From the NCBI RefSeq assembly GCF_900107415.1, contig NZ_FNPX01000001.1:62001-126000 (forward strand): 64,000 nt of DNA, in the 5' to 3' direction. This document shows positions 1,061-52,989 of the stretch, one piece after another (position 1 is the first letter of the stretch; the number at the start of each line of letters is the position of its first letter). This DNA is from Jannaschia faecimaris. GTDB taxonomy: Bacteria; Pseudomonadota; Alphaproteobacteria; Rhodobacterales; Rhodobacteraceae. The position numbers and the translations under genes are program-made. The notes below the pieces were generated by a model. It saw only the letters and a list, made by a program, of their open reading frames with translations. It made no database searches and had not been told where the DNA came from.

Positions 1061-2083
1061 ATGGGCTACAAGGTCGTCGTCTGCGGCGCCACGGGCAACG
1101 TGGGTCGTGAAATGCTGAACATTCTGGCCGAGCGCCAGTTCCCCGTCGATGAAATCACGGCGCTCGCGTCGCGTCGGTCGCTGGGAACGGACGTCAGCTT
1201 CGGCGACAAGACCTTGAAAACAAAAGACCTGGAGACATTCGATTTCACCGGCTGGGACATCGCATTCTTCGCCATCGGGTCAGATGCCACCAAGAAATAT
1301 GCGCCCATCGCCGCCAAGGCGGGTTGCATCGTGATCGATAACTCCTCGCTCTATCGCTACGACGCGGATGTGCCGCTGGTCGTGCCGGAGGTGAACCCCG
1401 AAGCCGTGGACGGCTACGCCAAAAAGAACATCATCGCGAATCCCAACTGCTCCACCGCGCAGATGGTTGTGGCGCTTAAGCCTCTGCATGACCGCGCGCG
1501 CATCAAGCGGGTCGTGGTCAGCACATACCAATCCGTGTCGGGCACCGGCAAGGAGGCCATCGACGAGCTCTGGGATCAGACCAAGGGCATGTACGTCCCC
1601 GGTCAGGAGCGGGAGCCGAAGGTCTACACCAAGCAGATCGCATTCAACGTGATCCCGCACATCGATGTCTTCATGGACTCGGGTGAGACCAAGGAAGAAT
1701 GGAAGATGGTCGCCGAGACCAAGAAGATCGTGGATCCCATGATCAAGGTCACCGCGACCTGCGTGCGCGTTCCGGTGTTCGTCGGCCATTCGGAAGCGAT
1801 CAACATCGAGTTCGAGGATTTCCTGGACGAGGACGAGGCGCGCGATATCCTGCGCCAGGCCCCCGGCGTTCTGGTCGTCGACAAGCGCGAGGACGGCGGC
1901 TACGTCACGCCGGTCGAATGCGTTGGCGACTTCGCCACCTTCGTCAGCCGTATCCGGCAGGACAGCACGATCGACAACGGCCTGAACATCTGGGTTGTCA
2001 GCGACAACCTGCGCAAGGGGGCCGCCCTGAACGCCGTGCAGATCGCCGAAACGCTGGTCGAACGGGTGCTTAAGAAGCGCTGA
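1061..2083 (+). CDS. asd: Aspartate-semialdehyde dehydrogenase
   Basis: Reduces aspartyl-4-phosphate to aspartate 4-semialdehyde with NADPH, the branch point to lysine/diaminopimelate, threonine and methionine; cytosolic. The N-terminal Rossmann motif GATGNVG (about residues 9-15) binds NADP, and the active-site cysteine sits in NPNCST (Cys130). The 340-residue length is normal. Two adjacent ATGs exist (1058 and 1061); the GGAGG at 1051-1055 is 2 nt from the first and 5 nt from the second, so 1061 is preferred. A strong terminator follows at 2127-2156. Confidence 0.97.
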   Translation: MGYKVVVCGATGNVGREMLNILAERQFPVDEITALASRRSLGTDVSFGDKTLKTKDLETFDFTGWDIAFFAIGSDATKKYAPIAAKAGCIVIDNSSLYRYDADVPLVVPEVNPEAVDGYAKKNIIANPNCSTAQMVVALKPLHDRARIKRVVVSTYQSVSGTGKEAIDELWDQTKGMYVPGQEREPKVYTKQIAFNVIPHIDVFMDSGETKEEWKMVAETKKIVDPMIKVTATCVRVPVFVGHSEAINIEFEDFLDEDEARDILRQAPGVLVVDKREDGGYVTPVECVGDFATFVSRIRQDSTIDNGLNIWVVSDNLRKGAALNAVQIAETLVERVLKKR

Positions 2084-48367: not shown

Positions 48368-49456
48368 ATGAAAAACGTTCTCTTCGCCTCGACCGCTCTG
48401 GTTGCCTTCGCCGGCGCCGCCTCGGCCGAAATCACACTCACCGGCAACGCCGAAATGGGTATCTTTAACAACGACGCTTTGGTCGGCGATGATGTTGCCG
48501 TTGAAGTCAACGTCGTCGACGGTGAGACCAGCTTCCACACCGATCTGGACATCACGTTCACCATGTCGGGCGAGACCGACGGCGGCCTGACCTTCGGCGC
48601 GACCATCGACCTCGACGAAAGCGGCAACGGCGAAAACTTCGAATTCCCCGGTAGGCAGGGTGGCGAGACCATCTTCCTCTCGGGTGCCTTCGGCACACTG
48701 ACCGCCGGTGATACCGACGGTGCCGTCGACTGGGCCCTGACCGAGGTTGCCTTCAACTCCGGTTCGCTCGGCGATGACGAGACCGTGCACGCCGGCTTCA
48801 ACGGCAACAACGGCCTCGACGGTCTGTGGGACGGACAAGTCGTTCGCTACGACTACTCGTTCGGTGACTTCGGCGTCGCTCTGTCGGCCGAACTGGCCGA
48901 AGACAGAATTGCCAACTCCTCCGACGTTCTGGGTATCGGCTTCCGTTATAACCTCGACCTGAGCGGCACCACCGTTGGTCTTGGCCTGGGTTACCAGGGC
49001 TCGGAAATCGCTGGGACCGACGTCAGCGCGCTGGGCATGTCGGCCAACGCCTCCTTCGGCAACGGCTTCGCGGCCGGCCTGTCGTACATGAAATACGAAA
49101 ACCACATTCCGAACGCGATTGCGGACGGTGCGTTCACAGCCGCAGCCATCGCCGCTGTCCCTCTTGCAGCGAACACAGGCGGTCGTATCCTGACCCCAGG
49201 CAACGATGTCGATCACATCGGCGTCGGCGTCGGCTACACCACGGGTGCCATCTCGGCCAGCCTGAACTACGGTGAGTACGACTTCGACGCAGCCGGTGTC
49301 GACGACATCAAAGGCTACGGCCTGACCGTCGGTTACGACCTGGGTGGCGGTGCCATCGTTCAGTTCGGCTACGGCCACTCCGACTACGGCAACCTTGTCG
49401 ACTCGGCCGACGACACCGTCGATACCGTTTCGTTCGGCGTTCGCATGAACTTCTGA
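48368..49456 (+). CDS. Outer-membrane porin (Rhodobacter type)
   Basis: 362 residues: signal peptide MKNVLFASTALVAFAGAASA, then a strand-rich 16-strand general porin ending in the aromatic VSFGVRMNF (C-terminal Phe, required for outer-membrane insertion). Composition is acidic with many Asp/Gly turns, typical for marine Rhodobacterales. Strong Shine-Dalgarno GAGGG and a perfect terminator suggest high expression. It sits alone between the divergent DUF3576 gene and yggS. The 284-bp leader may carry regulatory structure, including a 6-bp stem GTGCCT/AGGCAC at 48271-48294. Confidence 0.93.
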   Translation: MKNVLFASTALVAFAGAASAEITLTGNAEMGIFNNDALVGDDVAVEVNVVDGETSFHTDLDITFTMSGETDGGLTFGATIDLDESGNGENFEFPGRQGGETIFLSGAFGTLTAGDTDGAVDWALTEVAFNSGSLGDDETVHAGFNGNNGLDGLWDGQVVRYDYSFGDFGVALSAELAEDRIANSSDVLGIGFRYNLDLSGTTVGLGLGYQGSEIAGTDVSALGMSANASFGNGFAAGLSYMKYENHIPNAIADGAFTAAAIAAVPLAANTGGRILTPGNDVDHIGVGVGYTTGAISASLNYGEYDFDAAGVDDIKGYGLTVGYDLGGGAIVQFGYGHSDYGNLVDSADDTVDTVSFGVRMNF

Positions 49457-49480
49457 TCCAACCGGATCATCAGTTGAGGG

Positions 49481-49512
49481 AAGAGCGGGCCTTGTGCCCG
49501 CTCTTTTCTTTT
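49481..49512 (+). terminator. Rho-independent terminator of the porin gene
   Basis: Perfect 10-bp stem AAGAGCGGGC (49481-49490) / GCCCGCTCTT (49496-49505), 5-nt loop CTTGT, then TTCTTTTT. One of the clearest terminators in the window. Confidence 0.93.
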
Positions 49513-51774: not shown

Positions 51775-51937
51775 CGCGCGTGATTTCCTGTAACATTTCG
51801 CCCGATGACGGGCCTTGCACACTGCACATATGAAACATTTGCACCTTTGGCGACACGTCGGCGTGAGCGGTGATGAGCAGACTTCCCAGACAGAGGGGCA
51901 CGAGGCACCAATAGGGAAACAGATAACGGAGGCTTCG

Positions 51938-52624
51938 ATGGCCAATCTCAAGAAGATCCTACTTGTCGATGACGACGACGACTTGCGCGATGCCCTCGCC
52001 GAACAACTTGTGATGACCGAGGATTTCGACGTCTTTGAAGCCGATTCGGGGGCCACCGGCATGAGCCGGGCAAAGGAACAACTCTACGACCTGATCGTTC
52101 TGGACGTGGGCCTGCCGGATACTGACGGGCGCGAATTATGCAGACTCATGCGCAAGCAGGGTGTCAAATGTCCCGTGGTCATGCTGACCGGCCATGATAC
52201 CGACGCCGACACGATTCTGGGGCTGGATGCAGGGGCGAACGATTACATCTCCAAACCTTTCAAGTTTCCGGTCCTGCTGGCCCGGATTCGGGCCCAATTG
52301 CGCACCCATGAGCAGTCCGAAGATGCCGTGTTCGCCCTGGGGCCATACACCTTCAAACCATCGATGAAGATGCTGCTGACCGAGGATGAGAAGAAAATCC
52401 GCCTTACAGAAAAAGAGACGAATATCCTCAAGTTTCTTTACCGGGCCGGCGACGGGACCGTCGCCCGCGACGTGCTGTTGCACGAAGTTTGGGGCTACAA
52501 TGCCGGTGTCACGACACACACGCTGGAGACACACATTTATCGCCTGCGCCAGAAGATCGAACCCGAACCGTCGAACGCCCGTTTGCTGGTCACGGAGAGC
52601 GGGGGATACCGCCTGATGGCGTGA
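51938..52624 (+). CDS. OmpR-family response regulator (orphan)
   Basis: 228 residues: receiver domain (acidic cluster VDDDDD, phospho-acceptor Asp56 in LIVLDVGLP, Lys in YISKPF) and an OmpR-type winged helix (about 130-225; TTHTLETHIYRLRQKIE). CGGAGG lies 5 nt before the ATG. No histidine kinase lies beside it. It is divergent from ribA across 163 bases. A candidate small RNA starts about 90 bases downstream and could be read from its own promoter. Confidence 0.9.
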   Translation: MANLKKILLVDDDDDLRDALAEQLVMTEDFDVFEADSGATGMSRAKEQLYDLIVLDVGLPDTDGRELCRLMRKQGVKCPVVMLTGHDTDADTILGLDAGANDYISKPFKFPVLLARIRAQLRTHEQSEDAVFALGPYTFKPSMKMLLTEDEKKIRLTEKETNILKFLYRAGDGTVARDVLLHEVWGYNAGVTTHTLETHIYRLRQKIEPEPSNARLLVTESGGYRLMA

Positions 52625-52710
52625 CGCAGGTGTCACAGCCGATTCAGAATTCCGAAATTTCCGAAAATTAACCCTAGGGAAACTTTCGTCTCGTAGTATT
52701 ATATTCATGT

Positions 52711-52787
52711 ACCGGCGCATCAGCGGAATTTCTGATGCAACCTCCCTGTTGGACTTGGCCGGACCCTCGGGTTCGGCCTCTTTTTTT
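52711..52787 (+). ncRNA. Candidate small regulatory RNA
   Basis: About 77 nt in the 365-base gap between the response regulator and DUF2461. In order: an AT-rich -10-like element (TATTAT/TATATT, 52697-52705); a perfect 7-bp hairpin GCATCAG (52717-52723) / CTGATGC (52732-52738) with an 8-nt loop; an unpaired linker containing ACCTCCCTG (52740-52748), complementary to AG-rich Shine-Dalgarno sites; then a 10-bp terminator hairpin (GGCCGGACCC/GGGTTCGGCC, one G-U pair) and a T-rich run TCTTTTTTT to 52787. No open frame of note. Not matched to a named family; the -35 box is unclear. Confidence 0.6.
52757..52787 (+). terminator. Rho-independent terminator of the candidate sRNA
   Basis: Stem GGCCGGACCC (52757-52766) / GGGTTCGGCC (52769-52778) with one G-U pair and a tight loop, followed by TCTTTTTTT. 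It lies 133 bases after the response regulator stop and could also end that transcript. Confidence 0.85.
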
Positions 52788-52989
52788 GCCGCAGGCTGAC
52801 TTTTTTCCCCCGGCCGCCCAACGGGGGCGACGCCGGCCATCATCACCATGCCCGCACGCGGCGGCGCAGAACCCGGTGCTGCCATCAGCCTAGGGCAGTT
52901 TGCGTTTTCAGGATCAAGGTCCGGGACATGCCCCACCACCTGCGCTAGATTCGGAAAGGACGCGGAAGAGCGCCACCGAGGAGCAAGCG

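Follow-up and report, generated by a model that had tools for sequence, protein, structure and literature searches.

The RNA encoded at positions 52710-52784 on the forward strand of the window (the whole 64,000-nucleotide stretch of DNA that was analyzed) is very probably the SorX small RNA (sRNA) of Jannaschia faecimaris, a local copy of a described RNA that blocks mRNA ribosome-binding sites. SorX itself is already known, and the copy in the window is an additional, ordinary member; what is new is the kinship that the comparisons indicate among SorX, SorY, and RNAs linked to vtlR throughout the class, together with the distinct upstream sites that would separate their control. On balance, we favor the view that SorX and SorY form the Rhodobacterales branch of alphaproteobacteria-wide anti-Shine-Dalgarno (anti-SD) sRNAs that lie behind trxB-vtlR and are switched by VtlR through the site ATGC-N7-GCAT, and that in Rhizobiaceae, AbcR1 holds the same locus, site, and task. 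SorX would then be a copy freed from VtlR behind ompR, under new control that varies by lineage (release from the ompR mRNA by processing, FNR-type boxes spaced as in class II promoters, or, in the genus of the window, a TTWACC box plus a -10 element), and a 5' pseudoknot may guard its end.

Identity and conservation of the window RNA

The segment matches the Rfam family SorX (RF02784) along the entire model (positions 1-73 of 73) with 56.7 bits against a gathering score of 46.6 (E = 3.9e-11, 64-kb window searched), and it sits in the 3' UTR of an OmpR-type regulator gene, as in R. sphaeroides. With the SorX of that species (RSs2461, RF02784), it has in common the full-length Rfam match, the OmpR-type host gene, the linker, and the terminator. 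The features of the RNA and its host are the following:

52710-52784, + strand: SorX RNA (RF02784, 56.7 bits); the U-run extends to 52787
52717-52738, + strand: 5' hairpin of 7 bp with loop 52724-52731; 7/7 pairs with two-sided changes in 68 sequences
52740-52748, + strand: anti-SD linker ACCTCCCTG; CTCCCTG invariant in 68/68
52757-52787, + strand: intrinsic terminator and U-run, from fold and comparison
52712-52726, + strand: possible pseudoknot of CCG 52712-52714 with CGG 52724-52726, a weak lead
51938-52624, + strand: OmpR-type response regulator gene, the SorX host (Response_reg and Trans_reg_C above cut-off); orthologues adjoin SorX in 69 loci

The hairpin arms are GCATCAG (52717-52723) and CTGATGC (52732-52738), the terminator stem-loop occupies 52757-52778 and is followed by seven T at 52781-52787, and the gene-free stretch around the RNA measures 365 bases (52625-52989), with the ompR-type gene on its 5' side and a DUF2461 gene (from 52990) on its 3' side. 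The first-pass annotation had described the perfect 7-bp hairpin, the CCUCCC linker between hairpins, the strong terminator, and the exact length of the gene-free stretch just as they are found here, and it had read the whole as an sRNA with an exposed CU-rich anti-SD linker; both the structure and this reading stood, whereas its statement that the RNA matches no described family fell with the RF02784 match above the gathering score. The SorX strand folds stably (z = -3.41; 0/200 shuffles equally stable). Another, weak SorX match in the window (49456-49509, 22.8 bits) was rejected as a terminator without the CCUCCC linker.

An RF02784 match (E ≤ 0.001) was found in 291 of the 292 Rhodobacterales genomes sampled, all listed under one family, and the cut-off was passed in 247. 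The ompR-linked SorX copies extracted numbered 69, of which 68 were distinct; CTCCCTG is invariant in each of these 68 sequences, and RNAalifold returned the terminator together with the 7-pair 5' hairpin, all of whose pairs show two-sided changes. Compensating changes in the hairpin and an invariant linker are what the first-pass annotation had named as support for its sRNA. Among the 50 sequences from outside the window's genus, the structure including the pseudoknot pairs is paired in 89.4% of cells versus 76.7% in shuffles and in at most 47.0% when the structure is slid.

As for the pseudoknot, the 5' CCCG of SorX can pair in most relatives with CGGG in the hairpin loop (H-type); the window offers only CCG and CGG. 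Tested on all 50 non-genus rows (the 18 genus rows were excluded, many being one base out of register in the 5' segment), the pseudoknot cells are paired in 87.4% versus 80.8% in shuffles, and the two-sided changes number 12, of which 11 go from G-C to U-G; slid by -1, the pseudoknot is paired in 74.4% of cells, and the covariation score is 0.147 versus 0.156. An alignment-free test, from which 2/68 sequences without a recognized hairpin were dropped, gave 0/1000 swaps that reach the observed mean helix length. A 5' pseudoknot in SorX is possible on these data, with the balance leaning against it.

One of the 30 best loci of the order, L017, carries SorX without an ompR relative nearby (about 1501-1573, minus strand, 92.3 bits; no ompR inside the locus, ATCAAAG upstream). 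Two tandem SorX-type RNAs are present in L105 (1499-1566 and 1652-1718, minus strand) and likewise in G001 and G093. L117 and L118 have a second CCTCCCTG between ompR and SorX, directly 5' of SorX, where GATTGGCGG and CCGCCAATC may form a hairpin that carries it in the loop, and G294, G080, G060, and G302 have weak RF02784 matches about 3.2 kb away from SorX.

Upstream elements and the origin of the SorX 5' end

The SorX of R. sphaeroides has been described as originating from the 3' UTR of ompR-1, RSP_0847 (PMC8625941), with which it is reported to be cotranscribed from an RpoHI/RpoHII promoter (PMC3320616); the 5' end of the 75-nt form is attributed to RNase E, and the 116-nt precursor is seemingly the product of other enzymes (PMC6238624). 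Unlike in this account, a conserved -10-like element precedes the RNA in the window's genus, where SorX likely has its own promoter, alongside any 3'-UTR processing, because TAnnnT stands at one distance in 17/18 sequences. The transcript would probably start just 3' of the AT-rich element. The candidate elements are:

52694-52705, + strand: -10-like element (overlapping TAGTAT, TATTAT, and TATATT); TAnnnT here in 17/18 genus members
52668-52683, + strand: -35-region box TTAACCCTAGGGAAAC; TT[AT]ACC 41-44 nt before the anchor in 11/18 genus members
51882-51912, + strand: candidate ompR promoter, CTTCCC plus CACCAAT; partial conservation before ompR in 17 members of the genus

The AT-rich TATTATATTCAT lies at 52697-52708, upstream of the RNA, and the AT-rich -10-like element noticed by the first-pass annotation recurs at the same place across the genus. 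TAnnnT begins 12-15 nt 5' of the RNA's CCG in the 17 of 18 genus sequences (18 occurrences), and the maximum in any of 300 shuffles was 7 occurrences; TT[AT]ACC, 41-44 nt 5' of the same CCG, is found in 11/18 versus 0.7 in shuffles (single-letter shuffles served for the promoters and for the VtlR-type site below). TTAA-N7-TTAAC, which we take to be the CtrA consensus, occurs in 5/18 genus members, the window's TTAACCCTAGGGAAAC not being an exact match. An FNR-type box, TTGA-N6-TCAA, precedes SorX in 12 of 50 relatives from outside the genus (0.06 in shuffles) and in 0/18 SorX sequences of the window's genus. Nine of these 12 boxes end 35-37 nt 5' of the approximate RNA start, which we assume to be the spacing of class II FNR promoters. 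For R. sphaeroides, ChIP-seq has located an FnrL site where the promoter of SorX, formerly called RSs2461, is presumed to lie (PMC4263372). SorX thus appears, from these comparisons, to have lineage-specific promoters of its own beside the 3'-UTR route.

The reading that SorX has no promoter of its own, arising solely by processing of the ompR mRNA 3' UTR with the AT-rich element as an RNase E site, was reversed for the window's genus by the comparison of TAnnnT and TT[AT]ACC, and we now regard it as an unlikely rival. It is in line with the published origin in R. sphaeroides and with the spacing of the two genes: the SorX start lies 1-292 nt (median 72, 68 sequences) past the ompR stop, and at most 24 nt past it in 6/68, so that an intergenic promoter is hardly possible in those six. 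A sigma-70 consensus scan before SorX likewise found no promoter (0 found, 0.2 expected), and the 20 nt upstream of the RNA have a mean AT content of 0.53 versus 0.50 in the remaining spacer (68 sequences), which means that AT richness per se is not general before SorX. Processing as the only source agrees poorly, however, with one position of TAnnnT in nearly the whole genus, with the box 41-44 nt upstream in 11 of its 18 members, with the FNR-type boxes of the 12 other relatives, with the FnrL site at RSs2461, and with L017, which has SorX but no ompR. We therefore retain an own promoter beside processing as the preferred reading for the genus; under the 3'-UTR reading, 52694-52705 could possibly also be an RNase E site.

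Upstream of the host gene, the candidate at 51882-51912 presumably resembles an RpoH-type promoter. The block GCACATATGAAACATT...TTGGCGACACGTCGGCGTGA (51824-51866), between a divergent GTP-cyclohydrolase-II-like gene and ompR, is largely conserved in 17 genus members and is likely a promoter or operator.

SorY and the RNAs located behind vtlR

The genome to which the window belongs contains a second RF02784 match (51.3 bits, locus L002), which has the SorY position behind a LysR gene. At least two matches are present in 20/20 genus genomes searched, and of the 30 genus loci examined, 18 follow ompR and the other 12 follow a single LysR gene. The Rfam SorY consensus pattern retrieved 35 records, 32 of them with the same LysR (66-78% identical) upstream, and the RNA behind this LysR passes the SorY cut-off of 111 bits in Cereibacter johrii (115) and Luteovulum azotoformans (111.4). 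Given the LysR position and these passes in relatives, we take the second copy to be the SorY orthologue, SorX and SorY being paralogues. The window RNA itself is not SorY (RSs1543, RF02651): the two have the ACCUCCCUGUUGGACUU linker and the terminator in common, but the SorY model scores the window at 42.0 versus 111 bits, and the host is a response regulator gene, whereas SorY lies behind a LysR gene and has another 5' hairpin and a VtlR-type site upstream. At 111 bits, the gathering score of RF02651 conceals SorY in species less close to R. sphaeroides; C. ovatus (96.6 bits) and C. changlensis (82.3 bits) both score below it.

Across the class, RF02784 matches were obtained in 31 of 96 genomes drawn, and the cut-off was passed only by two Rhodobacterales. 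The other 29 genomes hold 33 matches, 16 of which lie 150-281 nt behind a VtlR-like LysR gene on the same strand, and a seventeenth (G372) lies behind the end of a VtlR-like LysR gene on a split contig; an ompR relative was nearby in 0/32 places examined (32 of the 33, G330:C55 being left out). VtlR relatives at E ≤ 1e-75 are present in 47/96 genomes, and CCTCCCTG occurs within 532 nt downstream of vtlR in 23 of the 30 best loci, in 12 of these 23 as CGTCTCCCAGACGTGAAGCCTCCCTGT. The LysR gene is preceded by trxB in L178 (TIGR01292), S. meliloti, R. leguminosarum, and apparently L183. The S. meliloti record CP090106.1 (3.7 Mb), labeled pSymB, carries trxB-lysR-arsR, a locus described as chromosomal, and is probably mislabeled.

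Two covariance models were compared across the groups. R1, built from 23 vtlR-linked RNAs outside Rhodobacterales only, with a 5-bp hairpin chosen by hand (RNAalifold gave no structure on the vtlR-linked alignment A2), finds 40/40 SorX/SorY sources given, a chosen part of those available, and 0/30 control loci of the same order; the window RNA reaches 37.4 bits with this model (E = 1.8e-9). The SorX-only model, R2, detects 27/49 VtlR loci at E < 0.01, with no match at this threshold in the other 22, and 0/28 controls at E ≤ 1. Because models from one group find the other group and not the controls, the evidence suggests that one old, widespread family comprises SorX, SorY, and the RNAs that follow trxB-vtlR in further alphaproteobacterial families. 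Some vtlR-linked RNAs, e.g., L208 2619-2687 (plus strand), have a 5' hairpin ACGTC-TCCCA-GACGT with a second CUCCC in the loop, which gives them two anti-SD motifs, as in AbcR.

The site ATGC-N7-GCAT lies between the LysR gene and the RNA in 36/46 SorY intervals as an exact match and in 46/46 with one mismatch; the vtlR intervals contain it exactly in 19/29 and with one mismatch in 26/29, compared with about 0.1 exact in shuffles (these 29 intervals were chosen by C[CT]CCCTG and include L217 and L231, both without CCTCCCTG). Half-site spacings other than N7 are rare, except for 11 SorY intervals at spacing 10. Exact sites are present behind vtlR in S. meliloti and R. leguminosarum, in 4/15 VtlR loci without the core motif (three of which, L238, L242, and L248, have an RNA found by both R1 and R2), in 1/69 regions upstream of ompR, and in 1/29 regions upstream of vtlR. 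Before SorX, 0/69 intervals have an exact site; one-mismatch sites occur in 19/69 versus 4.6 in shuffles and divide into 2/69 SorX spacers (shuffles 1.25) and 17/69 ompR coding ends (shuffles 3.25), the latter being taken as coding conservation. The right half of the site is the start of the LsrB consensus GCAT-N3-TG-N3-T reported for PabcR1 (PMC8844928), and we infer that VtlR would bind ATGC-N7-GCAT before SorY.

Convergence on an anti-SD sequence would account for CCUCCCUG and the terminator in SorX, SorY, and the vtlR-linked RNAs without common descent, and it fits 5' hairpins that differ between the groups and a linker that mimics the ribosomal anti-SD sequence. We hold it to be very improbable, since each group's model detects the other group but not the controls, since VtlR stands 150-281 nt ahead of 16 of the 33 class-level SorX matches, and since SorY and the vtlR-linked RNAs have the site in common too. 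Under common descent, which we prefer, the widespread form behind trxB-vtlR with its VtlR-type site would be older than SorX and would persist in Rhodobacterales as SorY, and SorX would be a copy placed behind ompR, without the VtlR-type site and with other, lineage-specific upstream boxes; that copying ran from the vtlR locus to ompR is deduced from how the forms are distributed rather than from a tree. Rfam keeps SorX and SorY as separate families, and an Rfam scan named one weak SorX match among 18 vtlR loci. The kinship would join the separate literatures on SorX and SorY of R. sphaeroides, on rhizobial AbcR, and on the regulator VtlR/LsrB. It predicts control of SorY by the adjoining LysR regulator and would allow a change of regulator to be traced among the copies of one sRNA family.

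Targets and relation to other anti-Shine-Dalgarno RNAs

SorX of R. sphaeroides is described as Hfq-dependent and as a translational inhibitor of potA, which encodes one component of a polyamine transporter (PMC9438474). By analogy, we infer a stress response, Hfq binding, RNase E processing, and repression for the window SorX. The RNA would start at about 52710, most likely from its own promoter, could in addition be released from the ompR mRNA 3' end by cleavage, and would have its 3' end set by the intrinsic terminator. Its exposed CCUCCC is complementary to GGGAGG, and in trans ACCUCCCUG would pair with GGGAGG-type ribosome-binding sites and lower translation, probably of transport and metabolic genes. 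The 10-mer AACAGGGAGG has four sites in the own genome, namely SorX itself, one inside an ORF known from a mechanical listing, and two that are ribosome-binding sites, 6 and 7 nt ahead of an ATG, of a Peripla_BP_6 periplasmic binding protein and a carboxyl transferase; the reversed control pattern has two sites, so that the count is no evidence and the sites are a lead. Orthologues of the binding protein keep GGGAGG in 30/30 and the longer ACAGGGAGG in 5/30, so the core is kept and the extension mostly is not; as background, GGGAGG makes up 41/109 of the GGAGG ribosome-binding sites, a count that includes copies of the binding-protein gene.

Among known RNAs with similar motifs, CcsR/cuckoo RNA was rejected as an assignment: the cuckoo motif is, we presume, CCUCCUCCC, and the window has the linker ACCUCCCUG and a response regulator as host. 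The host of CcsR is described as the ccaF1 3' UTR (PMC8625941). Assignment to the alpha-r8 family (MmgR, SisA-D; RF00519) was rejected as well, the window scoring 24.5 versus 41 bits, and the alpha-r8 core 5'-UUUCCUCCCU-3' is absent, the window having GCAACCUCCCU. That SorX might nevertheless be a distant alpha-r8 member seems quite unlikely to us. The plan is the same (hairpin, CCUCCCU linker, GACUU, terminator), as are Hfq and anti-SD action; RF00519 scores the own SorY at 30.1 bits, above the window; and 11 places in the class, all from beyond the order, are hit by RF00519 as well as by RF02784, with one (G360) passing the RF00519 cut-off. MmgR and SisA-D differ, however, in their core and in lying at another locus; RF00519 matches in Rhodobacterales stay below the cut-off (passed by 0/39 order genomes), R1 gives alpha-r8 loci low scores (no more than 27.1 bits in L075-L104), and in several genomes that have both (e.g., G303, G343, and G358), the vtlR-linked RNA does not coincide with the strong alpha-r8 match.

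The comparison with AbcR concerns the vtlR-linked family as a whole, to which we assign SorX. No paper among those searched names AbcR with SorX or SorY, beyond a word match in a text of 1821, or SorX with mmgR; among the papers listed in a wider search, judged by titles and abstract starts, none links VtlR or AbcR with Rhodobacterales. A two-seed AbcR search of 289 genomes returned 18 places in 17 genomes, none recognized as AbcR. AbcR1 and AbcR2 of Rhizobiaceae are described at the vtlR locus with the anti-SD seeds CUCCUCCC and UUCCCCUC (PMC8844928), and both seeds were seen in L275. The window SorX, being placed after ompR, does not have the AbcR position behind trxB-vtlR; the paralogue SorY is the copy that follows the VtlR-like LysR gene. 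AbcR1/AbcR2 (alpha-r15) differ from the family in length (114-121 nt), in having three hairpins, and in sequence, with no significant R1 or R2 match (nothing at E ≤ 1 for L275 or L276, and E = 0.95 and 0.15 for L280), and resemble it in the locus trxB-vtlR-RNA, in ATGC-N7-GCAT, and in anti-SD seeds placed in a hairpin loop and a linker. Locus, site, and design agree, and AbcR and the RNAs of this family likely correspond in task.
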